From contig PUQB01000063.1 of the NCBI GenBank assembly GCA_003024785.1, forward strand, positions 584,039 to 648,038: a stretch of DNA of 64,000 bases, written 5' to 3'. Shown here one piece after another: positions 24,836-52,644 of the stretch. Numbering within the stretch: the first letter of the stretch is position 1; every line of letters begins with the position of its first letter. A program made the translations under genes and the position numbers. Source of the DNA: Selaginella tamariscina. Its lineage: Eukaryota; Streptophyta; Lycopodiopsida; Selaginellales; Selaginellaceae. The notes under the pieces are model-generated. The model saw only the letters and a program-made list of their open reading frames with translations. It was not told where the DNA came from and did no database searches.

Positions 24836-24970
24836 GTATTAACTAGGCAAAGGGCCAATTGGTGTTTATGAGAGGGCCCTTGGTCATGATAACCTAATTA
24901 CACTTCAGTCTTTTTACTTACATATCCCATAATCTTTACCCGAGCAGTCAACCCACTAGGTTAGAACTAT

Positions 24971-25590
24971 GACGCTCTCCACCCATTTGAGAAAGTGGAT
25001 GCCTTCATCCACGAACTCAAAGGGTTGCTACTATGTCTTCCTCCAGACACTCTCCACCCATTTGAGAAAGTGGATGTGAACTCAAGAGTTGCTACCATGC
25101 CTTCCTCAAGAATGTGGAGCTCAGAGGTAGTCCCATACACGCTACGCTTGGCTTGTACATCTCATAATCTTTACCCGAGTAGTCAACTCACCAGGCTAGA
25201 ACTATGACACTTTTTACCCATTTGAGAAAGTGGATGCCCTTATCGTACTCAAGGGTTGTTATTATGCCTTCTCTCCACCCATTTGAGAAAGTGGATGCTC
25301 TCATCCACGGACTCAAGGGTTGCTACTATGCCTTCCTCCAGAATGTGAAGCTTAGAGGCAGTCCCATACACGCTACGTTTGGCTCACACATCCCATGATC
25401 TTTACTCGAGTAGTCAACCCACCAGGTTAGAACTATGACACTCTCCACCCATTTAAGAAAGTGGATGCCTTCATCCATGAATTCAAGGGTTGTTACTATG
25501 CCTTCCTCCAGACACTCTCCATTCATTTGAGAAAGTAAATGCCCTCATCCATGAACTCAAGAGTTGCTACTATGCCTTCCTCCAAAATGT
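24971..25590. repeat. minisatellite array, left part
   Basis: Diverged repeats of ctccacccatttgagaaagt...ggatgcc(t)tcatccacgaactcaagggttgctactatgccttcctcca, in places joined into longer units with catcccataatctttacccg and aatgtg(g)aagct(c/t)agagg. The array resumes at 40097-40455, so the 14.5-kb element 1 sits inside it. Confidence 0.8.
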
Positions 25591-25617
25591 ATGCAAGTTG
25601 TAACTAAAATGGGCATG
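25591..25617 (+). repeat. left TIR of element 1 (transposase side)
   Basis: It starts ATGCAAGTTGTAAC and ends GGGCATG. The right end in reverse complement reads ATGCACGTTGTAAC...GGGCATG. If the T before it is counted, the TIR would be TATGCA with a TG duplication; the 4-bp ATGT reading is preferred. Confidence 0.85.
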
Positions 25618-26097
25618 GCTATAGTCCCATTTCCTAATAATTAGCAATTTTAGCTATTTAATTAGCATTTTCTAATATTAAAGGAATATTCTTTAGAATA
25701 TATGTTTGAAAAGAGAATATTCTTTAGAATATTCTATTTTGTATTCTACCCTTTAATAAATTATAGCATTCATTGAACAAAAATTAATAACATTAAAAAA
25801 GTAGAATGTATTAAATTATATAATATATTGCCTAATATAACAATTAAGGAAGAGCATAAGAGGTACATTATATAAATATTGATGTTGTTATTAAAATATT
25901 AATATTTAAATATAACATTATTAATTAAAAATTTGTAGTAGTAATAATATATATATAAAATCCTATAATAATATAGTCAATCTTCCATATCATTTTTTAA
26001 ATTTATATAGTTAAGTATACAATTTGGTACTATTATTAAAGAGTTTATAATAATTATGAATATTAAATATATGATATTTTATAATTTTGTAATTGCT

Positions 26098-29000
26098 TTA
26101 AGCTTCAGAAAACATACATTCCCTTGCAGTTTTGTTAATCGTGACTTTATCAACGCTTCTTGGAATCCACCCATATCGAATGGATTTAACATTTATAAAA
26201 CATGCTGGGTCTTTTTGATTGGGAGACCATGTTTTCTCTAGGCATCCATTATATCTTTCGCTCTCCTTCTCGTGTCGCCTTTTTTGTGGTTTGAACCATG
26301 CAACCTTAACAATACTATTTTTTGTGATTACTTCAGGTGTGTCGATAATTTGACCCATCCAAATAGGCTGATTATATGACGCATCTGGAGTAATGAGAAC
26401 CATCATTAGTTTTTGAAGATCCTTGCAACAATCAAAGTATGCTTTAGGTTTTTGGTTCCTTTGTCCAACAAAGTGTGGGGTTTGCACTTCCACATCACTA
26501 CTGGCTTCTATGTCGTCTGTGCTCAGTGATGTCATTTCAATCTCCTCTCGCCACCTTGTTTTAGGCCAGAAAGGGGTGTTGCAATTCTGTACTTGTGACA
26601 GTAGGCCCTTCCAACTCTCGAACAACAGTCTCCCAATAGTTGACCACATGCTTATATAGTTCTGAGTAACCAGTTGCCTTATCAGAATTCTTTGGCATCG
26701 ATTTTTGAACCCATGCCACATATTTTTTGATGCCATCAATAATAACCTCTTGTTCCTTGAGCTGGGCACTCAATGGAATAGGGTCTGGTTGTCCTTCTGG
26801 GAGAAGTGGCTTTCCATCCTCTCCACTTTTGAAGAGCATTAAGCCCTCTTTCGGTAACCACTCCTGCTCTGATGGCCGTAACTTGTACTGCATAATAGGT
26901 ATACCATCTCGTATGGAGAAAAAGAATTGTAGCGGCACAAGGTGACCAACTAAAGAATCACTCCCTTCTTTTATATACTCCTTGAGAAATTTTTTGAAGT
27001 CTGGCACCTCAGTCACAAGCAAAGCACAACTTTTTTTGGAGATGCAATTTTCAAAAAGATTCATCATATGCGGTAAGGTAAGTGCACTTGTCCTTTTTGT
27101 AGAGTTGGAGACCTTGCTGAAGAACGCATCAATATCTTCATGAGTGTGACCAACCATAAGGAAACTGAGCGTGATTGTTTCAAACACACCTTTGGCAACA
27201 AGCATTGACAAGTATGCTAGCACATATCTAGAAAATAAAAGTAAGTATGAGCTTGAGAAACCCTTAAGTAAAATGATTTACCTATTTTTGTTCTCGCCTG
27301 CACAATTATCCATCTGTAAAAGCAAATGACGAGGAAGCTTATTTGATGTTGAGGACACATGTACACTATTTGAGCTAGATCCCTCCACTGAACCTGAACT
27401 CTCAACAGGGCCATCTGTTTTTTGTGCAGGTTGCTGACAATGCCTCTCATATTCCCAAGTAGCCTCAAGTGCAGACGTGTTCATGAGAGCATTATGTAAA
27501 GGTTGAAGGTGTTGTTTCTTCACTTTGAGATCACTGATAGGACTTGTCTGTGAGTGGGCTTCAAGGTTTCTGAAACACATGGCTAACGACCCAATAGTGA
27601 AATTGGAGTCGCTAGACCAATGTGGAAGTGAAAAGTGTCCATATGACTCACAACCGTGTCCATGTGTTAGCACACCTGTTAAAGAAATCGGAAGTTTCAT
27701 GACATTTCCAAGGCACTTTGGTGTTGCAAAGAGCTTTGGAATGCTGGTCTTTGAATGATCCATCTTGTCATGGATCAAGCACAGGTACTCTGATGGGCGT
27801 GACACAGAAAGCATGCGGTGTGCATAGTACTGAGACCGACAAGTTTGTTGTGCAATCATGTGGGCCTCCATCTTCCTTTGAATGGTAGTGATCTCCACCA
27901 AGGTTTTTGCACAAGCCTCTGCAGCCTTCAATGATGTACAAGTGTCACACTTAGAAAAGCTAGAGTGTTTTGCAATCTCCACATCCTTAAAATGAGTATT
28001 CCATATGTTGTTGAAGGTACCAGTGCAGATTGCTTGGAGCCCCATCAAACTGAGGCACTTGTTCACATGTTCACACAGTTTCAATTGAGTGTAGATTGAA
28101 GGTAAAACCTTGAGATTTTCCCTGACCCCTGCATTTGTGGTTCGGCATTTGTGAGGCATCCTGTCTGCATTTGCTTCCACAAAAGCCTTGAGTATCTCTA
28201 TGGCTGCCATGATGTGAGAGCGGGTTTTGACCAAGCCAGTGTTCCCATGAACTGAGGTTCGCGCTCCATCTAGCCACTCATCCCTCCGACGGTAGAACGT
28301 GGTCTTTGGGATCCCGTATATACTGTACCAAGCTTTGAAGCAGATGGCCACCTTATTAAATACCATGGATGTACTCTGATAACCTGTGTCCGAGGCCATT
28401 CCATCAATACACCCAGTTAGTGCAGCATATACAAACTCATGCCTTTGCTTTTGGGTGAGCATACGAAAGACATGTCTACATTGGGTAATTTCATCTGCCA
28501 TCTGACAACACTTCTTCTTGCAACAGTCAATCGTGGAAATGCTCGTAACACTTTCGGAAGATGTAGGATCCATCTTTACCCTCTTGCTGAAACTTGCAGG
28601 GGAAGATCTACAACCCATGAATCGCCTTTTTCTTACAATAGGACCAATGCAAGGAACCTCTTCAAATATGAGTTGTTCTTCCGGGTTGTTATTATTGAAA
28701 TCCAACCCAGAATATGTTGAACCATCTTGCCGTCTTAATTCAGATGTTCGCCACCTCACGAGGGATCCAGGATACAATGTGCCATTAGGTGAAACCTCTG
28801 TCACAACTACACCCACGAAGTCGGACCCTAGTTTCTCTTCTGACACTGCTTCCATTGGATTTATAGCTGTGATGATGCCTCTTCCGACTTCAATCTCACG
28901 AAGAAAGAGAATCACCTCATCCATCACAGCAGGCAAGCCATCATCTGGTAAACTCGTGCTACTATTTGTTTGTGACTCTGCATATTCTGTGTCAGCCTTG

Positions 29001-29224
29001 ACTTCATCCAAATTCCACAATACAGGAGAACCCTCCTCAAATTCCATTCCCAGAACCTCAACATGCTTGAAAATGGTGTTCACCCATACGTACACACAAG
29101 ATCCTTGGGAAATATTGTGACATGATGCATTATTATCTCGAACTTCCACAGTTCCAGTGCCAACTATCTCGTTGTTCCGAAGAAGACATACTTTATCTCC
29201 AGTATTAAACATATTGTCCTGCAC
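26098..29224 (-). CDS. transposase-like protein (DUF7869-like, RNase H fold inferred), element 1
   Basis: Exon 27282-29224 (647 codons) joins across a 54-bp intron (27228-27281, AG|GTAAAT...TTCTAG) to an exon reaching 26561. The join gives NKNRYVLAYLSML. Residues 1-90 and about 100-170 look like two small beta-rich repeats (GTGTV...YVWV and GRGII...GVVV). A Cys-rich stretch is at 234-240, HFKDVEI at about 413, and CDTC at 426-429. Candidate catalytic acids are DKMD (486-489), QMDN (637-640) and GHTHEDID after the intron, matching the D-D-E/D spacing of RNase H-fold transposases. From memory, this signature is that of DUF7869 proteins of plants and animals. The frame changes near 26565, and a coding-like C-terminus continues to 26098. 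The real start may lie in an upstream exon, because tgcag|GACAATATG at 29219 is an acceptor-like site. It is the likely mobility gene. Confidence 0.75.
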
Positions 29225-29359
29225 ATAAATAATTGTATTATTTATGATATCTGTTTATGCAATATTTTTAAGAAATCTGAATTACGGTTACTTAATAATA
29301 TGCATATGCAATAATACATAATTATGTTTAGAGATAATATCTCATGTTTGATTAATACA

Positions 29360-30200
29360 ACTGATGGGCGGGATTAATCCCGCCACGAATCCCTCCGACG
29401 AGGAACGGTCGGCGGGATTAATCCCGCCGCCGACTCAACCCCTTCGGAGAGAGTCGGCGGGATTAATCCCGCCGCGACTCCCTCGACGGGAAAGCCTGAA
29501 GAGCGGCGGGATTAACCCGCCGCCTCTCAACCCTTCGGAGAGAGTCGGCGGGATTAATCCCGCCTTGGACTCCCTCCGACAAGGAAGAGCCGGCGGGATT
29601 AATCCCGCCGCCTCTTCCTCCTCGGGGGAGTCCGGCGGGATTAATCCCGCCGACTCTCTCCGACGAGGAAGGGAGTCCGGCGGGATTAATCCCGCCGACT
29701 CATCCTCGCCGGAGAGAGTCGGCGGGATTAATCCCGCCGGACTCCCTTCCTCGTCGGAGGAAGAGGCGGCGGGATTAATCCCGCCGGCTCTTCCTTGTCG
29801 GAGGGAGTCCAAGGCGGGATTAATCCCGCCCACAATTCTTACGACGGGGAATGGGTGGCGGGATTAAACCGCACATAACTCTCTCCAAAACTATGATTTC
29901 AAAGAGATCTCGGGATAAATCCTGTCCCCAAATCTTTAAAACAGTGAAGTGGTGGCGAGATTAATCCCGCCACCCCTTCCCTGCCTCCTAAAATGGTTGG
30001 CGGGATTAATCCCGCCGACAACTCTTTCTAATAAATTCTGGTAACTCTTCATCAGTTGAGAAGGTTATCGACGGGATTAATCCCGCCACTCTTTTTCAGT
30101 GGCGGAGAAGCATTGCCCGGGAGATGGTGGCGGGATTAATCCCGCCACTTCTTCAAAGAGGCGAAAAAGAAATGGCCGGATTAATCCCGCCGCCCCGGTT
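29360..30200. repeat. palindrome cluster I (GGCGGGATTAATCCCGCC)
   Basis: About 17 exact or near-exact copies of the 18-bp perfect palindrome, spaced mostly 40-60 bp apart. They are separated by GC-rich spacers that are themselves partly palindromic (gagtcGGCGGG...CCCGCCgactc). Within it, 29547-29830 forms one large inverted repeat of about 130-bp arms. The palindromes are CpG-rich islands in AT-rich DNA. They lie just upstream of the transposase start, so control of that gene is possible. Short ORFs through them are artefacts of the repeat. Confidence 0.9.
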
Positions 30201-30361
30201 AACCTAGAATATTAAGTTAAAAGGATATTTAAACGTGATAAATCCCTAACGGAATATATTATAATCCTAATGCATTTCTAAACCCCTAAATTGTAATTTT
30301 AAGAGAGAATGTAAGAGAGTGAATCTTAATAAGTATTTTTAAATTTGTTTATAATACTTAC

Positions 30362-30437
30362 TTGTAAACAGCACTGAAGGCGCCGTGCTTTCCTATAAAG
30401 AATAGCACCCAATTTAATCTCGCTCCTGAGATGATCA
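30362..30437 (-). pseudogene. kinase-like exon fragment (glycine-rich loop), element 1
   Basis: On the minus strand, a pyrimidine-rich acceptor (TTCATAG) is followed by a 76-bp segment ending ...GTTTACAA|GTAAGTATT, a strong donor. The second half encodes IGKHGAFSAVYK, which fits the protein-kinase glycine-rich loop (GxGxFGxVYK) with Ser at the third Gly. In the deleted copy at 52407-52484 the exon is 78 bp and open throughout. Here 2 bp are missing, so the frame shifts inside it. It may be a captured host exon or a relic of another element gene. No other kinase exon was found. Confidence 0.55.
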
Positions 30438-31786
30438 CTATGAAGAAAAAAGAAGATCTAAAGAGTGAAAAATACAGAAATGAAGAAACCCTTGCCGGAG
30501 AAAGAACCAGATCTGAATTTGAGTGGGAAATTAAATGCATTTTCAAATTTATATGTCAGACCGACAATACATATGTCAGAAATTCAAATTTTTAAAAAGA
30601 ACAGAAAATAAAATTTAAGATGAGTTGACACAAATATCCGACACTCTGACATATATACTCTCCAGTTCCAATGAGTATTTTAAAATTGCATTTAATGTTA
30701 TTCAAGTGATTCAAGCTGTTTAATATTACGAAATTTTAGACTATATTCTACATTCTTAGTATTCAAGTATATTTATATTATATATATATATAAATATATA
30801 CTTATACAATAAATAAATTGATATATTATTATGTATCATTTAAAATATATTCATAGTCTGTTTATTATTATTATTTTCTTAATTACTCGAGTATTTAGTT
30901 TTCATTTCCTAGTATCAATGGGATATTCTTTAATATTTTATTAATATTTGAAGAATATTCTAATATTAAACCTGATTATCATAATTAAATTAGTCTTGTT
31001 CTTAATTATTGCAGTAATTATTCTACATTTGTATATATTAATGGGATTTTCTCAATTAATTTGTTATTATTTCAAGAATATTCATGTGTTAAACCTTATT
31101 ATCAATATTAAATTAATACACACTATGAACATATTTTAAATTATACATAATAATACATCATTTTATCTAATATATAGTCATATATAGTTTTAATATATAT
31201 AAAATATCATTTCCTTAATTACTTGAGTAATTAATCTTCTTTATATTAATGGGATATTCTTTATTATTTTCTTATTATTCCAAGAATATTCCAATATTAA
31301 ACATGATTATGATAATTAATTTAGTTAATTATTTGAGTACTTAATTTACATTTGTATATATTAATGGGATTTTCTCAATTAATTTCTTATTATTTCAAGA
31401 ATATTTCAATGTTAAACCTTTTTATCAATATTAAATTAATATATATTATTAAAACTATATATGGCTATATATTAGATAAAATCATATATTATTATGTATA
31501 ATTTAAAATATGTTCCTAGTGTGTTTATTAATTTTATTTTCTTAATTATTCGATGTTTGTTTTGCACACATATATAAACACAATCATAAATTTACACACG
31601 CATTACAAGAACTTACAAAAACACATATGCACACACATGCACAACCCTAAACCAAACTGAAGAAATATGTTGCTTCTTTATTGAAAACATCATGTTCAAC
31701 GCATGTATGATATATGTACTCAATCTGTGTATATGTAACACATTGAATTTACATGTGTAATATTTATATTAAGCTTGTTGGGAGCA
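30438..31786. other. AT-rich interior of element 1
   Basis: A very AT-rich stretch with diverged internal repeats (for example atgggat(a/t)ttct near 30919, 31039, 31247 and 31365, and caagaatattc near 31073 and 31273). No gene is supported. Confidence 0.6.
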
Positions 31787-32300
31787 AACCCTAAACCCTA
31801 AACCCTAAACCTAAACCAAACTACCCTAATATGTAACACAATGAATTTACTCATGTAATATGTATGTATGTCTGTGTGTATACACGTGTGCATGTATATA
31901 TGTGTACTCTGTATGTATATATGTGTACTTTCTGTCTTCTCTCATACATACACACCATGCATGATCCATGTTAATATGTACTGTCTCTCTTCTCTCAAAC
32001 ATACACACCATGCATGATCTATAATATGTACTCGGTCTCTCTAATATTATGTACTAATATGTATGTATGTCTGTGTGTATAATACACACCATGCATGATC
32101 CATATTAATATGTACTGTCTCTCTTCTCTCATATACTATGTATGTATATCTGTGTATAATATGTGTAAGTATATATGTGTACTAATATATGCAATGTGTA
32201 CAAAAATAATTTTTCAACACTCTCTCTTCTCTCATACATACACACCATGCATGATCCATCCTAAATCCAAAACCCTAAACCCTAAACCCTAAACCCATGT
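31787..32300. repeat. telomere-like CCCTAAA blocks and CATGCATG-containing repeats in element 1
   Basis: Short runs of the plant telomeric heptamer occur at about 31787-31815 and 32270-32295. Between them, a phrase of the form tctcttctctcatacatacacaccatgcatgatccat recurs about five times with changes. Both features recur, inverted, in element 2 (51620-52140), so they belong to the element and are not random neighbours. Confidence 0.7.
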
Positions 32301-32589
32301 AATATGTGTGTATGTCTGTGTGTATACACGTGTGTATGTATATATTATGTGTATTAATATATGCAATGTTTAACACTCTCATGGACACACACATGTTAAA
32401 TCCCTGCATGATTTATATTTTTGAGGTGTATGTGATACACCCACACACACGCACGCGCTAATAATATAATGAAAGAATATTCGTTTAGGGCGAATCTATA
32501 TTTTATTCTTTTTAGGGTTTAAGTATATTCTCAGAAGGAATATTCTATTAGGGTTGATATATATATTTAATTCCTTTAGGGTTTAGGTA

Positions 32590-32657
32590 TATTCTTAGGG
32601 TTTCAAGAGGCGGCGGCTGTGAAATCGGCGGCGGCGGCTGTGCACACAGGTGAGATC

Positions 32658-32688
<31 letters not shown>

Positions 32689-32909
32689 ATATGTATAGGA
32701 GTGTGCGTATAATTTTTTTCTTAGTTTTATCTCTCGCACACACACGCACACTCCTGTGTATGTATATGTGTGTCTGTATGATTTATTTGTTTCGCTCACA
32801 CACGCATACACACGATATACATATACACATATATATATATACCTATATACATATATACATACATATATTATGTGTACCAGTATCTGTAAATTTTTTTTAT
32901 TGATCTTGC

Positions 32910-32986
<77 letters not shown>

Positions 32987-33520
32987 ACCAGTATCTGTAA
33001 ATTTTTTTTTATTGATCTATCTCTCCCACACACACGCGCACTGCTTTACACACACACACACACACACACAGATATATATATATATATTATATATATATAT
33101 ATATAATATAATCAATGCATATTAACAAATAGTATACAACACTAGTTATATATATGCTTATATATTCACATTTTTTTATATCTAATACACACATATATAT
33201 GTGTGTGTTTTTCTGTATAATTTTATTTATTTATTAGTTTTATCTCTCGCACACACACGCACACTCCTGTGTATGTATATGTGTGTGTGTGTGTTTGTTT
33301 ATCTGTATGATTTTATTTGTTTCGCTCACACACGCATACACACATAAATACAATACACACATATATATACCTATGTACACACATATATTAGGTGTACCAG
33401 TACTGTATAAGTTTATTTATTTATCTATCTCTTGCACACACGCTACCACTCCTATACATACATACATACATATATATACACACACACACATATATATGTG
33501 TGTGTTTTTATCTCGCTAAG
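32590..33520. repeat. dinucleotide microsatellites (CA/GT, TA) in element 1
   Basis: Long (CA)n, (GT)n and (AT)n tracts, with the phrase tctcgcacacacacgcacactcctgtgtatgtatatg repeated near 32735 and 33245. A GGCGGC-rich segment lies at 32608-32640. No gene is supported; open frames here are low-complexity. Confidence 0.8.
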
Positions 33521-33524
33521 CCCT

Positions 33525-34945
33525 CGAGCGGCGGGATTAATCCCGCCGCTATATAGTTCCATGGCGGCGGGATTAATCCCGCCGCCGAGGCCCTTCAGGC
33601 ATGGGTGAGCGGCGGGATTAATCCCGCCGCTCATCCATGCCCTGCGCGGAATGCGGCGGGATTTATCTCGCCGGCAATGGCCTGTGTGAAGGTTCTAATG
33701 GGCGGGATTAATCCCGCCGGATTCCGCGCAGGGCATTTACAGGGAATGGGCGGCAGGATTAATCCCGCCGCTCTTCGGTTTGTCGTAGAGCGGCGGGATT
33801 AATCCCGCCGCCCAGGGAATTCACGCAGGACATGAACGGCGGGATTAATCCGGCCCCACGCTCATGCCCTTCGCGGAGGGCGGCGGGATTAATCCCGCCG
33901 TTCATGTCCTGCGTGAATTCCCTGGGCGGCGGGATTAATCCCGCCCCCACCCATCCCTGTTCAAAATGCCGCAGCCAATATATATGTGTGAGCGCATGAT
34001 TTACGAGAGGGCGGCGGGATTAGCCTCCGAACCTTCATTACCCGGTGGCGAGATTAATCTCCGAACCTTCATTACCCCATTGGTATGTTGAATCAATCCC
34101 GACTAACTCTGTCTGAGACGGAGAAGGTTTACAAAATACCAATGGAGGGAACCGAGAAGGGTGGTGGGATTAATTTCACCATCCCTTACATGGTGGGCGG
34201 GATTAATCCCGCCGCGTACGCATGCCCTGCGCGGAATCGGGCGGGATTTATCCCGCCGCCATTGGCCTGCCTGAAGGGCCTAGGCGGCGGGATTAATCCC
34301 GCAAGATTTCGCACAGGGCATTGGCGTTCGGCGGGATTAATCCCGCCGACTAAGGCCCGAGTGAAGGGCCTGGGAGGCGGGATTAATCCCGCCGGACGCC
34401 AATTCCCTGCGGAATCGGGCGGGATTTATCCCGCCGCCATTGGCCTGCTGAAGTGCCTAGGCGGCGGGATTAATCCCGCCCGATTCCGCGAGGAATTGGC
34501 GTCCGGCGGGATTAATCCCGCCGCATAGGGACCGAGTGAAGGCCCTGGGCGGCGGGATTAATCCCGCCGAGTCTTCAATGCCTGTTGGAGAAATGAATCT
34601 CGCCACCCTTCCCTTTTTCCTCCATTGGTGAGTTGGACCAATCCCAAACGTTTCTGTCTAAGACGTAGAAGGTTTACAACATACCAATGGAGGGACTGGG
34701 AAGGGTGGCGAGATTCATTTAACCATCCCTTACATGGTGGGCGAGATTAATCCCGCCCCTTTCTGGAGTCACTGAAGGGGTGTGAGAAATAAATCCTGCC
34801 CAGTTCTCTCTGAGACCGAGAAGGGTGGCAAGATTAATTCCGCACTCCCGTTCAAGGCCTCCAGAAAGGTGGCGAGATTAATCCCGCCCACTCTTTCAGG
34901 AGGCATTGAAGGGGTGGCGAGATTAATCCCGCCGCACCTTCCATG
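33525..34945. repeat. palindrome cluster II (GGCGGGATTAATCCCGCC), element 1
   Basis: Roughly 25 copies or near copies of the 18-bp palindrome, some as variants gattTatc or CTCGCC, at spacings of about 40-50 bp. Longer inverted repeats span neighbouring units (for example around 33795-33945, with gggaattcacgcaggacatgaac and its complement). It lies upstream of the ParB-like gene. The same cluster recurs inverted at 62715-64000. Confidence 0.9.
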
Positions 34946-35045
34946 TGAATATATATGTGTATTAGTATATATAAGTTGCATATCTCATTTTATTTACTTT
35001 TATCATCTTTCATATATTTCGAGTAAAAGCTAGGAATCTATGTAA

Positions 35046-35132
35046 AACTGTCCAGAGCTCACATTTGTGGTGGTTCTAAAACGAAATGTTATCTTTCTTT
35101 TGCACTAACACAAATGTGAGCTTCGGACAGTT
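35046..35132. promoter_or_regulatory. hairpin upstream of the ParB-like gene
   Basis: Arms 35046-35069 and 35109-35132 (24 bp each, 2 adjacent mismatches; aactgtcc...acatttgtg) are inverted around a 39-bp loop. The structure is kept in element 3 (62524-62610). It lies about 100 bp upstream of the first recognised exon boundary of the ParB-like gene and could be a protein-binding site or a structured leader. The function is inferred. Confidence 0.6.
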
Positions 35133-35274
35133 AATTACGTCTACTTCTCTCTGTGTATTATTTTTGTATATTCGGGTTTATACAAGTGTGTGTGCGTTTT
35201 TATATAATTTATATTTATAGTGTATTATTTTGCAGAAGGACGATTTGATCAAACAAGGAGATCGAGTCATTAGT

Positions 35275-38200
35275 ATGGAGTCGTCGTCAAATTCTGGGTA
35301 AGAATTAAAATAAAATCTGTTATACTCGGATACTTGAACTAATCATTTTTGTATTCAGATGTGGAATTGAGGTGACATTAAAGACAAGAGCAGGAGAAGA
35401 GATGGGCAGGGGGATTCTGGAATCAACTTGGCCATATTTTAAGATAAATGGGAAGCGCATTGGAGCAACCATGGCTGCTGTCAAATTAACCTCTGTCACA
35501 TCTCATGGACAAGCAAAACAATGGAAAGTTGATTCGCTAGTCAAGCACCCGAAAGCAGGCTGCGAACCCAGATTGGACGATGCTCGACAGATATGCCTTG
35601 TTCCATCCAATGTCACGTTCTCGGATCCAGAGGTCGTCAGTTACAACATTAATCTCGGGTGGTTTTGTCGACTTGTGGATAATGACGTTCACGTGTTCAC
35701 TAATGATGTTGACCTTGGAGTTCTTCTTCAACTCAACGAAAGCCCATCTATGGAGGGGATCCATCTGGATGTCTACTTCGAAGATCTTCAGACTCATCGA
35801 GTAGGTGTATTGTCAGGAGATATTGTTTCACAATACAGAAAATCAGCAAGTGGAGCAATCTTCCCTCTTGACATTGAAGAAGAACACAGCGACATCATAA
35901 GGGAGATTGAGAAGGTGGCTCGGTCTCAGGTTCTCTACAGATCACGTTCAATTTGCTTAGGAAGCTTCGGGAGCTGGAGAGTGTGCCGAGAACACTAGAA
36001 CAGCTGCAGTCGGGGATCACACATGTTGATTCGGATCGCAAAAGAAAATCATCAATCGTTTTGTCAGCTGCACCTGTGGCATCTCATGCTGCAATAAGTC
36101 ACAAGGAAATGATGTTGGATGATAAGATTTATCCTTGTAGGGTTAAATATTGCAGCGTCAACCCAAACTTCAATTACAGGCCACTCAACCAGGAACGTGT
36201 AGCTGAGCTCATGGAGAAGATGAAGGACGACAATTCTTATACCGTTCCACATAATGCTGTTTTGTGTCCATACTATGAAAGAAGGAAGGGTGCTGACAAA
36301 GTCTGGATCACAACACCAGAACAACTCATGAAGATTCAGACGGAGAATAAAAGATCTATCAAGTACTACATCATTAGTGGCCAGCACACAATAACGGCAG
36401 CCCAACGACTTCTCGAAGAACACAACAAAGGAACGATGGCAACAAAACTTTCCGAGCATACCCGTGAGAAGCTGACAAAAAGATCGGCGTTTTTAGCTAA
36501 GCCGAATCTCACAATCGAGCAGTACCATAAGTTATCGGCGGAATGGGACGCTGCCGACACCAACCACTACAACAGCAAAATATGGGAGAAGTTTAAACAC
36601 ACGCGAGCCGTGTGGGAATCTCTTCAGCGACCACAAAGAGCTACCGCAGGGAATACACAATCTGCGGAATACCGGGTAAGCAAATTGTTTGGGCGGGATT
36701 TATCTCGCCGGTATATTAATCTGTCTTTTTCCTCAGAGAGTTGAAGAAATTGCAGCAGTTGATTTTGCCCAGGTGGGCGGGAAGGAAACATCATTTCTGA
36801 TGATGTTGATTTCTTGCCCCGAAGATAGGATCTTTGCCAAATGGTTGGGGATTATGGAATCCTTTTCAAAAGGAACACTGAAGAAGAAGCAGACAAGTGA
36901 AGGGGAGCCCTCAGAAAAGTCTGCAAAGAAACCCAGTAAGACGCCGAAGGCTAAGTCTGTTCAATCTACAAAGGATGTAGACAACGATTTCAAGCTCACA
37001 TGGTTGAAGCCTTTAAATGGAACAACGATGGAGGAGATGGAAGTCTTGGCTGATTTGGTGATCGATGGCAAACTACAAATCAATAACAGCAGCCCAACCT
37101 CTCCTTTTCATCTCAAGGCAATGGAGTTGAAGACGGTCAGGCATTTCAAGGAGTGGTTGGGAATACACTGCCACAAACTGGGTTGGACCTCGACTTCAAC
37201 ATATGAAGAGGTTAGCAAATATTTGCATGTGACGAACGATGATATGCTTGTCGAATGGGTGAACCAATCGGAAGATCTGGCAAGAATCTATTGCACGCCA
37301 ACGCCAAAAAGGAGAACATTGGGATGACGCCTTCTCTTATGGCAGTCCTTCAGCAGCGGAGAACCGAATTGAACCTTATAAAGGAGGATGCTACGAATCA
37401 CGACAAGCCCTACAGATGTTTGTTGTTAGATTCGGAGACTTTATGGGGTAACATCACTGCTTGTAGGAAACCGTTTCAATTGTTCGTGATGGATCGGCGG
37501 GTGTCAAAAAATCTTTCGACAGATAGGGCACTAGAGGATCTGGTGGAGAAACTTAGCCGTGCAAGCATATACATAGAAGGTATTTATTATTGAATTCATG
37601 CTTGCGCTCTTCACTGATACCTACTTTTTCAGGTATTTATTTCTTGATTCTTGCTCATGTCACCGATACTTTTGCCTTCGCCTTCGCCAAGAAGAATAGA
37701 CATCGTTGGACAGGATTTTATATGAACGATGCTAATCCCAAGTGCATTGATACTGTTGTTCACTTGGTTGTTAGGAATGCGCCAAACAATTTCAAGCTTC
37801 CAAATGACTGGCCAGGCATCTGTTTGCACTCCAACGGCCCTGAACCTCCATCCGATACACCGATAGGTATGAGTGACGTATTCGGCAATGTACGTTATCC
37901 AAACATTACAAGTCAAGCGGCACGGAGCATCGTCAACTTGATCAGGGGTCCTCACAGTGATGCGTGGGTTTTTGACTACTGCACTAGGGGGTCCGTCTTG
38001 AAGGAGTGTTACCTTCGGCATACATGTGTGTTTGCCGTTGAGAAGGATAAGACCATGGTTGAGGACCTGAACAAGTGGATAGATTGGGTCTCAACTGAGT
38101 ACCCCAACGATTCCATAAAGGCGTATTTGAGAAAGTTCCCTCCAGATAAGTGCGATAGCTCTGAAGGTGAATCTGGTTCAATCTCGGAGTCTGAGAACGA

Positions 38201-38378
38201 ACATCAATCAGATATTAGACCGGAAGTTATCTCGAGGAGTACAGAACATTCGCACACTCCAGGACCCATGGAAACATCAATAGAAGATGCAGAAGATCTT
38301 GAACCATCTCACAAGCGGCTTAGACCTTCTTCGCCTCACTCAGAAGGTAATAGCGAAGAAGAATTGATAATGAATTGA
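35275..38378 (+). CDS. ParB-like/degenerate DNA-methyltransferase-like fusion protein, element 1
   Basis: The inferred exons are 35275-35297, 35359-35929, 36004-36675, 36737-37579 and 37633-38378. All introns are GT-AG and 53-74 bp, and the phases agree except for a 1-nt loss near 37278 (element 3 has GATCTAGGCAAG, this copy GATCTGGCAAG). The product would be about 951 residues. The N-terminus carries a GD-V...GRGI module like that of the transposase. The ParB/Srx-like domain spans about 36115-36425: NPNFNYRP, ERVAELMEKMKDD, then YIISGQHTITAAQRL in place of the GERR box. A Lys/Ser-rich linker follows (36870-36975). The C-terminus has FQLFVMDRR (about 37473, where DPPY would be expected) and later VFDYCTRGSVLKECYL...FAVEKDK (about 37965-38055), like the FxGxG SAM-binding motif. 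The order ParB-DPPY-FxGxG matches bacterial ParB-N6/N4-methylase fusions. Catalysis is doubtful. An upstream exon is possible (acceptor at 35235). Confidence 0.65.
36676..36736 (+). promoter_or_regulatory. intron of the ParB-like gene containing a variant palindrome
   Basis: A 61-bp GT-AG intron holds GGCGGGATTTATCTCGCC (about 36692-36709), a two-mismatch version of the palindrome that fills clusters I and II. It is the only copy found inside a gene and is kept in element 3. It could be a feedback binding site for the protein encoded around it. Confidence 0.55.
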
Positions 38379-38489
38379 TAGAGTGATGAATAGTTGTAAA
38401 TGAGTGTAACATAAGGCATTTTTGTATATTTCTTTTATATTTGTACAGAAAATAAATTCTCAAGGATTAATGAAGCTTTTAGTTCAAAC

Positions 38490-39835
38490 ATGGGTCACAC
38501 ATTAACAAGGTAAATAATATACCTTGATAATTTTAAGGTCAGCTAATTATCATTTTGCAGATGTAATGAAATAATTGAGAACATGGATTTTCAGCATTGC
38601 CATGAGGTAAGAGAGGGGTTTGGCGACAATTTTTGTGCCACATGTCAGAATGACAGAGTTCATGCAGGAAATGGATAATAATGCAGCTCAAAACATCGTT
38701 ACCATGGGGGCCACTTCAGTTTTTGCATCATCATTTTTATTGGCTTCAGTTCCGAAATCAATTTCTTCAGCGCATGCAATATCTGAATCTTGTAAGGATG
38801 ATGTACAATTAAATGATGAAGGGATAGGCAACGGATAAATGTGAAAGGGAGCAAACAAGTGATTTGCAAAGTATTCAAGAGGCAACGCTATCTCACGTTA
38901 CTCATGGCCATATTGTGTTGTTGGATGTCAATGGTGTTCTGCTTCATCGACAAAGGCCCGAGGATAGAAAAACAGAAATCAAACAAGGAGATTTCATTCC
39001 TTGTCATGGTAAATTTCGATATGATATTATTTTTCGTCCAGGGTTGGATCGTCTCTTTCAAAAGCTTAAGGAGATGGGTGCGCTTGTGGGGATTTGGTCA
39101 TGCATGCAGATTCATAACTTAACACCGCTGTTGAGTTTACTTAAGAAACATTGTAGTGTTGCAGAAGAGGTGATTCGTAAAGATTGGATTTTTGACCAGC
39201 GAATGTGTCATAAACCTCTCGAATTTCACAATATAAGAAAGGAAAGCAAGCCATACTTCTTCAAGAATGAAAGAATAATTGGGACTCATGGGGAGATCAG
39301 TCGCTTAAGGATAACGAAGAATGCACATATCTTAGTAGTAGACGACTCTCCTCAGAAGGCTATGCTCAACCAAAACATTGCTTGTATTCATCCAATCACT
39401 TTCGATCCATATTCTGATATCGATATCATGGATGAGCTAGTGAACTACTTGGATACGTGCCTCAGAAAGAAGAATCTCGAAAATTTTTGTGAGCAGTATC
39501 CACCGTATCATACATTTCCTGAAGCTTTTCTTTCTCGTGATATTGAATTTTATAAAATGAAGGATAGCAACCGGGCGCTTTATAATATTATTCTTAAGGA
39601 ACGTCAGTTTTTAGATGAGCCTTTATGCAGACCTTCTCTTATCACATCTTATGTATTAACAAGGATGGCAACTCCCAATTGCATTCGTGAGAGTGTTAAG
39701 TGGTGGCAACAACATCAAGATATTGACCAAAATGATTTGATTAATCCGGAGAGTGATGATTTAGACAAAATGAGATTTCTTTGTATGATAGAAGAAAGTA
39801 TTTATAAAAAAATTAACATGTTGATAAGAAAATGA
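38490..39835 (+). CDS. FCP1/NIF phosphatase-like protein (HAD fold), element 1
   Basis: The inferred exons are 38490-38509, 38561-38606 and 38668-39835, with GT-AG introns of 51 and 61 bp. A 2-nt loss near 38827 breaks the frame (element 3 has GGGATAGTGGCAAC, this copy GGGATAGGCAAC). The restored length would be about 411 residues. HAD motif I reads DVNGV (38924-38938) where active FCP1 enzymes have DxDxT, so the second acidic residue is Asn and the Thr is Val. GALVGIWSCM (about 39078) corresponds to motif II and VVDDSPQKAM (about 39335-39365) to the acidic motif. Loss of the general acid/base Asp argues for a binding role or weak activity. FCP1-family proteins act on phosphorylated proteins such as the RNA polymerase II tail. 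It lies 110 bp downstream of the ParB-like gene, on the same strand. Confidence 0.7.
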
Positions 39836-40069
39836 TTTCATTTGTAATTATGTTTGATAGTATTTCTTCATTATTGTAAACTATTTTTAGAATAATATGA
39901 ATATTCTAAGATATTTTAGGAATATTCCTTACTAAGTAAGGTTATTGAAGGATTAATTAATTAATTAATTAATATTTAAGGCTTAATTACATATTAATTA
40001 AATGATTAATTAATAATTAAAACTTAAGTATTAATTAGTAATTTATTTTATATTCCCATTTTCACGTAT

Positions 40070-40096
40070 CATGCCCACTTTAGTTACAACGTGCAT
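40070..40096 (-). repeat. right TIR of element 1 (FCP1 side)
   Basis: Read on the minus strand it starts ATGCACGTTGTAAC and ends GGGCATG, matching the left TIR at 25/27 positions. The ATGT duplication follows at 40097-40100. An adjoining AT-rich stretch with TTAA repeats (39940-40040) is shared by all three right ends. Confidence 0.85.
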
Positions 40097-40455
40097 ATGT
40101 GGAGTTCAATCCATGGACTCAAGGGTTGCTACTATGCCTTCCTCCAAACTGTGAAGCTCAATCCACGGACTCAAGGGTTGTTACTATGCCTTCCTCCAGA
40201 CACTCTTCACCCATTTAAGAAAGTGGATGCCCTCATCCACGAACTCAAGGGTTGGTACTATGCCTTCCTCCAAAATGTGAAGCTCAATCCACGGACTCAA
40301 GGGTTGCTACTATGCCTTCCTCTAAACACTCTCCACCCATTTGAGAAAGTGGATGCCCGCATCCACGAATTCAAGGGTTGTTACTATGCCTTCCTCTAAA
40401 ATGTGGAACTCAATCCATGGACTCAAGGGTTGCTACTATGCCTTCTTTTAAACAC
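40097..40455. repeat. minisatellite array, right part
   Basis: It continues the array of 24971-25590 after element 1, with units such as ggactcaagggttgctactatgccttcctccaaa(c/a) alternating with ctccacccatttgagaaagtgg. Confidence 0.8.
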
Positions 40456-40456
40456 T

Positions 40457-40625
40457 CTCATAACCCCCACCATTTATGGGTTAAGTCAATCTTCTCCCAT
40501 AACCCCCACCATTTATGGGTTAAGTAATCTTCTTCCATAACCCCCATCATTTATGGGTTAAGTCAATCTTCTTTCATAACCCCCACCATTTATGGGTCAA
40601 GCCCACCTACTTCCATAATCCCCTA
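40457..40625. repeat. short tandem array of cataacccccaccatttatgggt units
   Basis: About four units of 37-38 bp (cataacccccaccatttatggg followed by ttaagtcaatcttct), each beginning with a partly palindromic accatttatgggt. They adjoin the minisatellite and have no coding potential. Confidence 0.8.
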
Positions 40626-41009
40626 CCATAATTTTTATGTAACCCCTATTTTACACCTTTTTTACACCCTACATTATCTTATATGCATTCTTTATATTAT
40701 TTGGGGTATATAAGAAACAAAGGCTCAATGGTTTGAAGACATATGGATATAAGAGGAGAGAGATATAAAAAGATAAATTATCTTAAGTTTCTTCTTTTCT
40801 TTTTTTACTTTGTAAATAAATGTGATGAGATTATATTGTTTTTTGTGTATTCTTATGATGAAATATAAAAACTAATTAGTGTATCTTTTGTGTCATGAGT
40901 TTCATCTCATGTTTTTCCTTTCTTTTCTTCATGTGTGTGATCATTAGTAAGGACTATTATGATGCGCTTCACTAAAGCCATCAAGTCCCGAACATCTGAG
41001 TGATTTTTC
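40626..41009. other. unassigned DNA between tandem repeats and Ty3 copy C
   Basis: AT-rich, with no gene supported. The phrase ggggtatataagaaacaaagg near 40703 is TATA-like and could be an old LTR promoter, but no partner repeat was found. Confidence 0.4.
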
Positions 41010-44584: not shown

Positions 44585-46476
44585 AAGACTATGCCTTAAT
44601 ACGGGATTGAAGGCTCAGTTGTCACACAGAGCTAAATTGCTTGTGTGGAGGAGTTACAGCTGAAGGTTGGCAAAACCCAACTGATGGAGACTTTCTTTCT
44701 TGCGGAGCTAATGCGTGTGGACCTCATCCTTGGGATGAGTTGAGTGGAGCAATGGCCAATTCCTAGCAATGCAGAAGAGTTATAGAGTTTCTTGGGCATG
44801 GTTGGTTATTACCAGCGGTATGTCACGGATTATGCTAAGAAAGCTTCTCCATTAACTAGGTTGCTGAGGAAGGACGTTCCCTTTGCATGAAGTGCTTGAG
44901 AGAAGAGCAGTTTCCAAGCTTTGAAACAAGCTTTGGTACATGCACCAATTTTATGTATTGTAGATCCCTCTAAGCCTTATCGTGTGATGCAAGTGGAGTG
45001 GCCATTGGAGTTATACTTATGCAAGAGGGAAGGCCTATTGCTTATGAGAGTCGTACTTTGAATCCTGCAGAGCAACGGTACTCAATGTATGAACAAGAAT
45101 TATTGGCTATTGTTAATGCATTACGAATTTGGAGGCATTATCTTTATGGTGCAAGTTTCAAGGTGTTTACAAATCACAAGCCTTTGGTGTATTTGTTCAC
45201 ATAGAAAGAGTTGTCAACAAGCTTGCTAGATGGTTAAGCTCATGAAGTTTGGCAAATTTCCTATTGAGCATCATGAGAGGAAGGTTAACGTGGTAGTAGA
45301 TGCTTTGTCACGTGTTAAGAGAGCCACATGCTCAAGCACAAGACGCCGAGGTGCAGGAGCTCAGAGGATAGCTAGAGCAACCATTCTCATTTCAGGATGG
45401 AGTTTTGTATTACAATGGCCATGTGTATCTTCCTCATGTGGACCATTTGATCAATCAAATACTATATTTCCATCGTGATCACCCGGAGGTTGGTTCATTT
45501 TGGGGGAGGAAAACGTATGAGTTGATCAAGAGGAGGTTTTATTGGAGGAATATGAAAGATGATATCATAGAGTATTATAGGACTTGTGACAAGTGTCAGC
45601 AAGTAAAGGTGCCCAGAGAGAAACCAGGTGGGATATTAGTACCATTGCCTATTCTGGATAGGCAATGGGGCAGTATCTCTATGGACTTTGTCACCTAATT
45701 GCCAAGGACACAGTGGCATTGGAATGAGTCCATACTATGCTATGTTTGGACGACATACCAAGATAGCTTTTGAGCTGGGTTTAGCAAGTAAGAAAGCTCA
45801 AGGCAACATGGATGAGGAACTTAAAGATCTGAGTGTTGAGCTTAGAAACATTCAGAGTTTATGCAAGAAGAACTTACAAGCAGCTCAGAGCCGAGCTATC
45901 AAGTTTGTTAATGAGCACAAAAGCTTCCAAGAGTTCCAGGTGGGAGATTATGTATATCTCCAAGTGGTATTTGCCACACATGTAAGGCGGAACACTGTTG
46001 TGGCCTTACGGAAGGGACACAATAATAAGATGTCTCCTAGGTACTCAGGTCCTAATGAGATTTTGGAGTGTATCGATAAGGTGGCATATCGACTACGGCT
46101 TCCAGAAGGAGTGAGGGTGCACCCAGTGTTTCATGTTAGCTAGTTAAAGAGAATACTCACAAGGAATAAGTCCTGGGTAGATTCTTTGTGGATGTACAAG
46201 GCTAATGATATACAAGACCAGTTGAGTAATTTATACTGCCCTTGAGGACAAGGACTTGCTAATGGGGGAGGATTGTTATGACTCGTATAACAAATCAAAG
46301 AATATTCCATAAAAGGTATAAGCTAGAATATTCCTAAAGAGCTATACCTAGATTTAAGAGAATTGCACCCGAATATGGGAAGTCTTTTGGAGAGTAGCGT
46401 GTGGAGACTAGAGACAACTCGGGGAGGTCGGGTGGTTTTGTGAGGGTCTCTAGTTTGTACGTAGTGGTTCCTAACA
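44585..46476 (+). mobile_element. second Ty3/gypsy family, plus-strand copy D, truncated
   Basis: It starts inside the protease ([16 protein letters not shown], about 44668) and jumps from the DLILGM motif (about 44723) to late RT/RNase H codons (WPIPSNAEEL, about 44755), an internal deletion of most of the RT. RNase H is at 44980-45330, the integrase zinc region at 45500-45640 (YRTCDKCQQVKVP), and an integrase C-terminal segment at 45720-46140 ending HPVFHVS. The integrase core is deleted near 45700. A 3' LTR (46274-46476) follows a purine tract (atgggggaggat). Confidence 0.75.
46274..46476 (+). repeat. LTR of copy D
   Basis: It begins TGTTATGACTCG and ends CCTAACA, and matches 47082-47293 in inverse orientation. 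It is classed as the 3' LTR because a polypurine tract precedes it. Confidence 0.75.
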
Positions 46477-47081
46477 GCTGGCGAGGTCACCATCTATCCT
46501 GCAGACAGAAGGTACTCCATTCGTCCCAGATATGATTTTACTATATACATTTTCATGATACAAGATCCTTGATACTTGCAGATTTTAGGAAATCATTTCC
46601 AATTTCATTTCACTGCCTCAGGATGAAAAAACAAAAGGTAAAATTCCATTTTACATATGCTAGTGTTTCACTAAAATGGTCTTTCCTGATTACATGCGGG
46701 TTGCATCTGAAAAAGTAAGTTTACCTAGTCTTCATGCTAAACTCCATTACATGTTGGTTTCCCATTGCAGATCCTCAATAAGATACATACTAGCGATCAT
46801 GAGATTAAAGAAGGAGAATCTGGGTGAGTTTCGTATAGTTTATTAAGAGAGAGAGTGTATGCATGTTTGCATGTGTACAGATAGAAACATATATAGACAC
46901 TTCAAGTTGTTCTTAACTGGTTGTTTTTGTTTGATAGCAACTCCAACTATGAAAGCCTGGTACATAATAAGTGATGTCTCACTACTATTAATAGTAGCTA
47001 AAAGCTTTTCTATATGTCCAAGAGCATTATAGGGATGTGACAAAAAGGAGAAGGAGGCTTGGCATGAAAAAAGCCGGTAGG
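46477..47081. other. spacer between two convergent retroelement copies
   Basis: About 600 bp without a gene. The left and right LTR ends point into it. A (GA) tract occurs at about 46840-46855. No target duplication was assigned to either LTR. Confidence 0.5.
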
Positions 47082-47293
47082 TGTTAGGCACCCCTACGTA
47101 CAACCTAGAGACCCTCACAAGACCACTCAACCTTCCCCGAGCTGTCTCTAATCTCCACACGCTACTCTCCAGAAGGGCTTCCACTAATAGTATGCCTTTA
47201 ATTCTCTCTTAAATCTAGATATGGCTCCTTATGAATATTCTAGCTTATACCTTTCTGGGGAATATTCTTTGATTCGTTATATGGGTCATAACA
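47082..47293 (-). repeat. LTR of copy D' (minus strand)
   Basis: On the minus strand it runs from TGTTATGACCC to GTGCCTAACA. It is preceded by a purine tract (aatggggggaggat in that sense), so it is again a 3' LTR. Confidence 0.75.
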
Positions 47294-48897
47294 ATCCTCC
47301 CCCCATTAGTAAGTCCTTGTCCTCAAGGGCAATATAACTTACTCAATTGGTCCTGTATCATTAGCCTTGTACATCCACAAAGAATCTACCCAGGACTTGT
47401 TCCTTGTGAGTACTCTCTTTAACTAGCTAACATGAAACACTAGGTGCACCCTCACTCCTTCTGGCAGCCGTAGTCAATATGCCACCTTATCGATACACTC
47501 CAAAATCTCATTAGGACCTAAGTACCTAGGAGACATCTTATTATTATGTCCTTTCCGTTAAAGCCACAATAGTATTCCGCCTTACATGTGTGGCAAATAC
47601 CACTCGGAGATATACATAATCCCCCATCTGGAACTCTCGGAAAGCTTCTGTGCTCATTAGCAAACTTGATAGCTCAGCTCTGAGCTGCTTGTAAGTTCTT
47701 CTTACACAAACTCTGAATGTTTCCAAGTTCAACACTCAGATATTTAGCTTCCTCATCCATGTTGCCTTGAGCCTTCTTACTTGCTAAACCAAGCTCAAAA
47801 GCTGTCTTGGGATGCTGTCCAAACATAGCATAGTATGGACTCATTTCCAATGCCACTGTGCTGGCTGTTATTATAAGCAAACTCGAGTAATGGAATATAC
47901 TTATCCCACTGGCCTTCCTTCTAGTTATAGTGCACCTTAGCATATCTTTCAGAACTTGGTTCACCCTCTCTGTTTGCCCATCTGTTTCAGGATGATCTCC
48001 ACTACATAGCTTAAGCTTCACTTTTATGCACTTAGAAAAGCCTCTCTAAAAGCTAGAAGTGAACTTGGAGTCCCTATCACTTACAATATCATCTGGAAAT
48101 CCGTGGATAGGAATACATGTTATAAATACATCGTAGCCAGCTCGGATGCATTCACATTCTTTCCCAAGGGAACTAACTTGACAAACTTTGTCAACCTGTC
48201 CATAATGATCCACACATGTTCATTCTGCCTCTGTGTCCTTGGCAAATGGGTGATAAAGTACATAGAGATACTGCCCCATCGCCTGTTTGGAATAGGCAAT
48301 GGTACTAATAGCCCACCTAGTTTCTCCATGGGCACCTTTACTTGCTGACACTTGTCACAAGTCCTGTAGTACTCTATGATATCAGCTTTCATATTCTTCT
48401 AGTAAAACCTCCTCTTGATCAACTCATACGTTTCCTTCCCCCAAAATGACCAGCCTTCGGGCGATCATTGATAAAAATATAGTACTTGGTTGATCAAATG
48501 GTCCACACGAGGAAGGTACACACAGCCATTGTAGTACAAAACTTCATCCTGAAATGAGAATGGTGGCTCTAGCTGTCCTCTGAGCTCCTGCCTCGGTGTC
48601 TTGTGCTTGAGAATGTTGAACTACTTGGCTAAACTCACTGACCGTCCTTGTTAATGCATTACATAAGCGTGTTTGGAATTCTCCCACTACTGTGGCTCTC
48701 CTAACGCATGACAAAGCATTTGCCACCACGTTAGCCTTTCCTACGCGATGCTCAATAGGAAATTTACCAAACTCCATGAGCTTAACCATCCAGCGAGCTT
48801 GCTGAGAGTTTAACTCTTTTTGTGTGAACAGATACACCAAAGGCTTGTGATCTGTAAATACCTTGAAACTTGCACCATAAAGGTAGTGCCTCTAAAC

Positions 48898-49596
48898 TTA
48901 ATGCATTAACAATAACCAGTAGTTCTTGCTCATACGTGAGTACCGTTGCTCTGCAAGATTCAAAGTACGACTCTCATAAGCAATAGGCCTTCCCTCTTGC
49001 ATAAGTACAGCTCCAATGGCCACTCCACTTGCATCACATGATACCTCATAAGGCTTAGAGAGATCTGTAATACATAAAACTAGTGCACGTACCAAAGCTT
49101 GTTTCAAAGCTTGGAAACTGCTCTCCTCTGAAGCACTCCATGCAAAGGGAACGTCCTTCCTTAACAACCTAGTTAACGGAGAAGCTTTCTTGGCATAATC
49201 CTTGACATACCACCGGTAATAACCAGCCATGCCCAAGAAACTCCGTAACTCTTGTGCATTGTTAGGAACTGGCCATTGCTCCACCACTGCCACCTTCTGT
49301 GGATCAGTCTTCACTCCACTTGGCATCACAATGTGACCCAAATACTCCACTTCGCACTGAGCAAATGCACATTTACTCTTCTTTGCATAGAGCTTATTCT
49401 CCCTCAACAATTGAAGAACTCTCCGCAAATGCTCCACATGCTCCTTCATATTCTTACTGTAAATAAGAATATCGTCGAGGAAGATCTCCACAAAGTCATG
49501 CAAGTAGTCACCAAACACCTCAGTCATCAATCGAGTAAATGTGGCTGGGGCATTTGTTAAGCCAAAATGGCATAACAATGAACTCAAAATGCCCAA
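48898..49596 (-). pseudogene. RT palm/thumb and RNase H segment, copy D'
   Basis: An open frame of 232 codons containing FLDDILIYS (the RT catalytic box in FLDD form), [12 protein letters not shown], and [18 protein letters not shown] (RNase H start), then EQRYS. It is typical of plant Ty3/gypsy Pol. It connects by frameshifts upstream to 49646-50347 and downstream to 48544-48840 (KVNVVANALSCV-like end of RNase H). Confidence 0.8.
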
Positions 49597-49645
49597 AGCT
49601 AGTGTTGAAAGCAGTTTTGTAGATATTTGCCTCCTTCATAGCAAT

Positions 49646-50347: not shown

Positions 50348-50374
50348 ATGCACGTTGTAACTAAAGTGGGCATG
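50348..50374 (+). repeat. TIR of element 2 (FCP1-side type)
   Basis: It starts ATGCACGTTGTAAC, identical to the right-end type of elements 1 and 3. It directly interrupts the Ty3 copy D' coding frame. Confidence 0.85.
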
Positions 50375-50699
50375 ATACGTGAAAAGGGAATATAAAATAA
50401 ATTACTAATTAATACTTAAGTTTTAATTATTAATTAATCATTTAATTAATATGTAATTAAGCCTTAAATACTAATTAATTAATTAATTAATCCTTCAATA
50501 ACCTTACTTAGTAAAGAATATTCCTAAAATATCTTAGAATATTCATATTAATTTAAAAATAATTTACAATAATTAAGAAATACTATCAAACATAATTACA
50601 AATGAAATCATTTTCTTATCAACATGTTAATTTTTTATAAATACTTTCTTTATATCATACAGAGAAATCTTCTCATTTTGTCTAAATCATCACTCTGTA

Positions 50700-51064: not shown

Positions 51065-51103
<39 letters not shown>

Positions 51104-52484: not shown

Positions 52485-52644
52485 GTAAGTATTATAAACA
52501 AATTTAGATATATTTATAAAGATTCACTCTTTTACATTCTCTATTAAATTTTAGAATTAAGGGTTTAGGAATGCATTAGTATTATAATATATTATGTATG
52601 GATTTATCCCGTTTAAATATACTTCTAACTTAATATTCTCCGTT

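Follow-up and report, generated by a model that had tools for sequence, protein, structure and literature searches.

The window analysed here, a 64,000-nucleotide stretch of the Selaginella tamariscina genome (GenBank assembly GCA_003024785.1, contig PUQB01000063.1, positions 584,039 to 648,038), contains at 25591-40096 a single DNA transposon of 14,506 bp, called copy A below. It belongs to a very abundant, recently active family of DNA transposons with terminal inverted repeats (TIRs), 14-15 kb in length. Besides a transposase gene, the element carries two arrays of an 18-bp perfect palindrome, a gene for a protein of 976 amino acids (aa) with ParB-like and methyltransferase-like features, and a gene for an FCP1-like protein. 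The likeliest function of the 976-aa protein would be that of a VANC-like self-targeted regulator or anti-silencer.

Copy A and its family

The anatomy of the element itself is near certain. The left TIR, 27 bp long, lies on the forward strand at 25591-25617 and reads ATGCAAGTTGTAACTAAAATGGGCATG; the right TIR is found on the reverse strand at 40070-40096, and its reverse complement is ATGCACGTTGTAACTAAAGTGGGCATG. Both are bordered by the tetranucleotide ATGT (25587-25590 and 40097-40100), a target site duplication (TSD), and both are embedded in a minisatellite split by the element (24920-25590 and 40098-40629). An uninserted unit of this minisatellite, CCTCCAAAATGTGAAGCTCAATCC at 40267, looks like the empty target site. 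The 27-bp TIRs, the ATGT duplication within a minisatellite and the presence of three related copies in the window had all been announced in a preliminary description made from the letters of the DNA, and all were borne out.

The transposase gene occupies 26098-29254 on the reverse strand. Array 1 (29367-30191) starts 113 bp upstream of the transposase open reading frame (ORF), and is separated from array 2 (33530-34933) by an AT-rich, low-complexity centre (30192-33529). Between the end of array 2 and the start codon of the 976-aa gene (35275-38378, forward strand) there are 342 bp; this gene is followed by the FCP1-like ORF (38828-39835, forward strand). The 976-aa and FCP1-like genes are thus both transcribed opposite to the transposase gene. 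The AT-rich centre includes brief stretches of AAACCCT, a repeat of the plant telomere type, at 31786-31817 and 32260-32296.

Abundance was measured on the 300.7-Mb assembly. A TIR pattern allowing up to 2 mismatches gave 4,092 sites (2,097 + 1,995), and the transposase motif GHTHED(I/V)D, searched as a degenerate pattern, gave 1,898 (933 + 965), with 0 sites in either control, that of the TIR being the reversed pattern. Chance repeats were rejected on the strength of these controls and of that for the palindrome, also 0. Supposing a full copy between all paired ends, the family would make up at most about 10% of the assembly; its true share is lower because short copies and duplicated contigs exist. 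When the left 310 bp of copy A were used as a query, 40 of the 41 matches listed were full length and rounded to 100% identity (785 candidates, 40 scored), from which we conclude that the family moved recently.

The preliminary description could have failed on TIR pairs that do not bound one and the same unit. Among the first 100 of the 4,092 TIR sites, 28 adjacent pairs faced inward. Of these, 20 combined a left-type with a right-type end, at a spacing of 13.9-15.0 kb in 11 cases, and the description was not refuted; a spacing of 13.5-15.5 kb was found in 3 of the 36 adjacent pairs of other orientation.

An exact 4-bp duplication was present in 9 of the 17 copies for which both ends were read (A, C596, C147, C687, C452, C236, C65, T1 and T6), and the duplicated sequence varied among copies. 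As a chance match of 4 bp is expected about once in 200 by a rough estimate, the duplication is real. One extra base is present close to the right end of C687, a copy which shares 20 bp of left flank with C147, and the right end of C453 is damaged. No right end was found in five fetched stretches (C1066, C440, two of C438, and C324), and those of C2, C641/C533 and T5, among others, lay outside the fetched stretch or past the end of the contig.

To what extent the three genes travel together was read from two sets of copies. Nine other young copies, chosen by their left end and read nearly whole, represent eight loci, C533 and C641 being counted as one (same alignment coordinates on A, common left flank). 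The order found in A (transposase, arrays, 976-aa region, FCP1-like region) recurs in all nine, with both arrays present. A second set, of eight elements or fragments, was chosen for a third TIR type, for an odd length, or as copy B of the window. Only three of these (T1, T2 and T6) have all three genes, and the others are either reduced in length or scrambled: T5 has no 976-aa gene (10,000 of its 10,164 bases were fetched), T3 and B have the transposase only, and T4 and T7, which carry parts, are bounded by outward-facing ends and hence are not single elements. The claim that the three genes are co-carried within the TIRs was not refuted, and it is supported by the young copies. That the genes are mere neighbours of the element was rejected, as their order is kept in nine copies and none was found in the window outside the copies.

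The transposase matches the Pfam family DUF7869 (PF25273, E-values 4.1e-27 and 2.5e-12); no paper naming DUF7869 was met in the literature search. By eye, a first exon (29254-27282) is followed by a GT-AG intron (27281-27228) and a next exon from 27227, and an additional open piece at 26561-26098 is a candidate exon. Mismatches at codon positions 1, 2 and 3 of exon 1 numbered 127/121/186 in seven copies. The sequence P0001 is 33% identical to the first transposase ORF across 72% of its length. Scans of viral contigs with three queries matched 5, 1 and 50 stretches, with no relative among them. A second, diverged transposase family was noticed on C220, C537, C716, C784, C1026 and C1096, with GHTHEDID written in other codons (6 of 11 sites). 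On L069, a 1.4-kb piece from this second family, an array was not seen; the start of the transposase was not located there, so that the piece is uninformative either way.

Sola1 transposons generate TSDs of 4 bp. The same length is given for Sola2 in the part of PMC3627910 consulted. Membership of the present family in Sola is suspected from its TSDs, whose length fits.

Palindrome arrays and accessory genes

The palindrome, GGCGGGATTAATCCCGCC, is repeated mostly every 45 bp in the two arrays, and over nine copies 264 of the 336 intervals shorter than 200 bp measured 40-49 bp. The arrays announced in the preliminary description were confirmed: the window has 35 exact palindromes, all of them within A or C, and five base shuffles of the window produced 0 at up to 3 mismatches. 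At up to 5 mismatches, 84 were counted in the window and none fell outside the three copies A, B and C. Copy A has 45 sites at this threshold, and most array intervals remain one unit long, meaning that few units have lost their palindrome. A lone palindrome with 2 mismatches lies at 36692-36709, in intron 2 of the 976-aa gene.

Conservation is concentrated on the palindrome. Among 42 sites of copy A (up to 4 mismatches), its 18 columns are 88-100% uniform, as compared to 33-62% for the 14 columns on each side. Pairwise identity between palindromes is 0.978 in array 1 (15) and 0.952 in array 2 (22), values inflated by the selection of sites for likeness to the word, and between spacers it is 0.640 (10) and 0.583 (16), or 0.681 and 0.628 on the better strand. 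The ten young copies, A included, have 23-32 exact palindromes each, and 35-44 at up to 2 mismatches. Exact palindromes are fewer in most older or shortened copies (T2 30, T5 9, T6 5, T7 4, T1 3, T3 1, T4 1, B 0). CpG dinucleotides are also lost: 40 of the 101 CpGs of A are missing in the aligned part of B, 25 of them changed to TpG or CpA, and 123 of 250 in T4, 84 of them to TpG or CpA, neither comparison being polarised. The pattern in B is as would be seen in a methylated, dead copy.

The exons of the 976-aa gene were placed by eye at 35275-35297, 35359-36675, 36737-37579 and 37633-38378. Frameshifts interrupt exons 2 and 3 in copy A. The frame is intact in C533, C658 and C147, and C641 has the same ORF lengths; it is broken in C453 and, judging by ORF lengths, in C687, C596, C1066 and C440, the remainder of the ten young copies. 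Comparison of C533 with T1, T2, T4, T6 and T7 (T4 being left out for exon 4) gave 155/169/315 mismatches at codon positions 1, 2 and 3, a pooled count which overstates independence owing to changes common to related copies. The pair C533-T6 alone, with 32/37/78, also departs from equality, and protein-level selection on the 976-aa gene is supported by these counts.

What the protein resembles is a matter of motif reading. Its middle part reads like the N-terminal stretch of ParB (YYIISGQHTITAAQ), and its last third reads like the motif order of N4/N6 DNA methyltransferases; both labels are our assumption from motifs and architecture, confirmed by no profile. At the places presumed for the DPPY-type and FxGxG-type motifs, set by motif reading, the ten young copies and also T1 and T6 have LDSETLWG and DYCTRGSVL, so the catalytic motifs do not occur where they would be expected. 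One residue is changed at these places in T2, T7 retains the second only, and T4 gave no match to this part. The gene put forward in the preliminary description as ParB/methyltransferase-like is thus present and selected as a protein, but its naming was not confirmed by any profile. Among PHROGs the protein had a single match, to a family of unknown function, at 0.059. Matches at 0.035 to 0.085 in Pfam and PHROGs were weak and were dismissed as chance. Sequence searches of the PDB gave none for the 976-aa protein, and further ones were at chance level (nine, best 0.068; one at 0.32).

The presence of an FCP1-like gene was upheld, its product matching the NIF domain (PF03031) at 1.3e-11, with 44.8 bits against a Pfam cut-off of 21.8. 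The open frame spans 335 aa in A and 404 aa in C533/C641 and C596. The catalytic motif of the NIF/FCP1-like family is DxDx(T/V); in A and C533 the corresponding place reads DVNGVL, so that DxN replaces DxD. A protein database search with this protein returned nothing at E≤0.001.

In the interval between array 2 and the 976-aa gene, a hairpin with a shape like that of microRNA precursors was found on the forward strand at 35047-35133 (23 pairs, 40-column loop, fold z = -8.5). It was recovered in 15 of the 18 sequences searched, including the diverged T4. One pair was changed on both sides, a weak support since 91 of 500 shuffles reached the same level. Rfam gave seven matches to the hairpin, none reaching the gathering score (best MIR7807, E 2.1e-06, 38.3 bits against 90).

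A proposed expression switch and its alternatives

The element, we propose, works as an expression switch that recognises itself. The palindrome arrays of the family would be the binding sites of its 976-aa protein, probably a dimer clustering over the phased sites, and this protein would keep open, or time, two promoters presumed to lie at the arrays, on the model of VANC acting on the motif arrays of VANDAL. Its methyltransferase-like half might hold DNA or read methylation instead of acting as an enzyme, and the FCP1-like protein, with its DxN, is less likely to be an active phosphatase than to join the transcription machinery as a partner. Shortened copies with TIRs and array 1, such as B, could be mobilised in trans. 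Taken as a whole, this pairing of protein and palindrome as a switch is quite possible, if somewhat short of probable. A bolder version, in which a land-plant transposon acquired self-recognition independently of VANC, through a ParB-like protein whose methyltransferase half is dead and which clusters on palindromes and shields two divergent promoters from methylation, an FCP1-like pseudo-phosphatase being the transcription partner, is offered tentatively and we regard it as rather doubtful. A working three-part accessory system, with binding of the protein to the palindromes, anti-silencing, promoters at the arrays and a role for the FCP1-like protein, is an inference.

Several observations weigh against the proposed switch. 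Neither a ParB nor an N4/N6 methyltransferase profile matched the 976-aa protein (Pfam at E≤10, NCBIfam at E≤5), a search in which HMMER filters discard most matches above 0.1, so that a weak kinship may have escaped it. The protein database search with residues 230-860 returned nothing at E≤0.001. Single-sequence AlphaFold prediction of the ParB piece reached a pLDDT (predicted local distance difference test) of 37, and an AlphaFold model of P0001 with the window transposase 33, both useless. Part of the contrast between palindromes and spacers comes from the way sites were selected, as said above. T1 and T6 possess all three genes with no more than 3 and 5 exact palindromes (14 each at up to 2 mismatches); these copies being close to A in their genes, array loss is not due to age alone. 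Codon-position mismatches in the FCP1-like gene, 32/36/52 over five copies, are only weakly biased. Finally, 7 of the 17 copies with both ends read (C658, C158, C7, C29, T2, T3 and B) have no 4-bp duplication, which may reflect recombination between copies or assembly faults.

Other explanations of the arrays do without the 976-aa protein. They could be plain enhancers of both genes bound by a host transcription factor, the 976-aa protein having some unrelated task: each of the two genes has an array upstream, a perfect palindrome is a site well suited to many homodimers of the host, and copy B retains array 1 without the 976-aa gene. We nevertheless hold this to be unlikely, as no palindrome was found in the window outside the elements, and the word is not an exact fit to the plant E2F consensus, the one motif compared. 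The arrays might also serve the transposase, as binding or autoregulation sites, since in B and T3, which lack the other genes, array 1 has stayed with the transposase region. Transposases, however, assemble at element ends, and the arrays are situated 3.8 and 7.9-9.3 kb inside A, with array 2 adjoining the 976-aa gene, which makes such a role quite improbable.

The remaining explanations concern the proteins. An active N4/N6 DNA methyltransferase marking its own element, as suggested for a relative in Ectocarpus (Sola1-1_Ec32, below), would agree with the matching architecture and strand; given the sequences found at the expected motif places and the lack of a profile match, we consider it highly improbable. 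The ParB and methyltransferase names may on the other hand be wrong altogether, and the 976-aa protein an orphan specific to the element, as the failure to find any profile or homologue would suggest. The order of motifs and the opposite-strand arrangement both match the published relative, and make this improbable as well. Lastly, the extra genes could be captured passengers without function, in keeping with the weak codon bias of the FCP1-like gene and with the several copies that lack one or both genes. Against this, third positions are in excess in the 976-aa gene, and both genes are kept in 9 of 9 other young copies. We judge the passenger explanation very improbable overall; it is disfavoured for the 976-aa gene and may apply to the FCP1-like gene. 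Returning to the self-recognising switch, if arrays and protein do pair up, plants would have seen motif-array anti-silencing emerge on more than one occasion, this time with prokaryote-type parts. The palindrome is a ready substrate for a binding assay.

Known relatives and other copies in the window

According to the preliminary description, no named superfamily held this set of genes. That did not stand: Sola1-1_Ec32, a 21.5-kb element of Ectocarpus, has a ParB-like/N4/N6 DNA methyltransferase gene opposite its transposase, encoding 1,104 aa, and similar proteins are cited from green and red algae (PMC12477816, consulted in part). Both elements are giant transposons with a gene of about 1,000 aa opposite the transposase, inside the element. 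For the methyltransferase of Sola1-1_Ec32 the predicted product is 4mC or 6mA, whereas the expected motifs are missing here, and a ParB-like domain was not detected by profile in the 976-aa protein (Pfam, NCBIfam, PHROGs). Palindrome arrays and an FCP1-like gene are not mentioned in the part of PMC12477816 consulted, the comparison being one of descriptions. Sola itself is listed in land plants (Physcomitrella Sola1, also Capsicum) in a table of PMC9033089, the part consulted, which is silent on accessory genes. Sola2 elements with Fanzor1 (PMC3627910, in the part consulted) resemble the present family by their Sola type, 4-bp TSDs and extra gene, and differ by TIRs of 12-21 bp and by a Fanzor gene in place of the genes found here.

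In the parts of PMC5735166 and PMC10398659 consulted, VANC21 binds a 9-bp motif, YAGTATTAY, arrayed in noncoding and intron regions of VANDAL21, and loss of methylation follows. The Selaginella element likewise combines an accessory protein with tandem short motifs in noncoding parts, namely the arrays ahead of two genes and the lone site of intron 2. The VANDAL21 motif is direct and in one orientation, whereas here an 18-bp perfect palindrome and a different protein are involved, and the system is known from sequence alone.

In the bacterial ParB-parS system, ParB acts with clustered palindromes (parS). The element resembles it by the ParB-like motif stretch and by clustered palindromes of about the size of parS, and differs by the lack of a ParB profile match and by being a chromosomal transposon; no ParA-like partner was found among the Pfam matches of its ORFs. 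The ParB-like/methyltransferase class of accessory genes in algae, and Sola in land plants, are therefore already known. The present family is set apart by its land-plant host, its palindrome arrays, the lack of the expected motifs in the methyltransferase-like half, and the FCP1-like gene. Literature on ParB, transposons and Selaginella showed nothing related by title, and no comparable element besides Sola1-1_Ec32 was met in the literature searched, which was not aimed at the palindrome or FCP1 and left most subscription journals outside.

Two more copies lie in the window, both on the reverse strand. Copy B (50348-57088) is a shortened, 6.7-kb element which retains both TIRs, the transposase region and array 1, and is 91% identical to A at the transposase end; on reading, it contained neither the 976-aa nor the FCP1-like gene. 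Copy C (57580-64000) extends beyond the window end, is 98.7% identical to A, and includes array 2, the 976-aa gene and the FCP1-like region. Differences between C and A in the latter region are mainly single-base gaps, and these look like long-read assembly errors rather than decay. Outside these copies, neither element DNA nor any of the three proteins turned up in the window. Between copies A and B, a retroelement-like stretch has four inverted pairs of 203-237 bp with 90-96% identity (44744-49284), a reverse transcriptase (RT)/RNase H region at 48898-49635, and a Tf2-type SH3 piece at 45640-46143.

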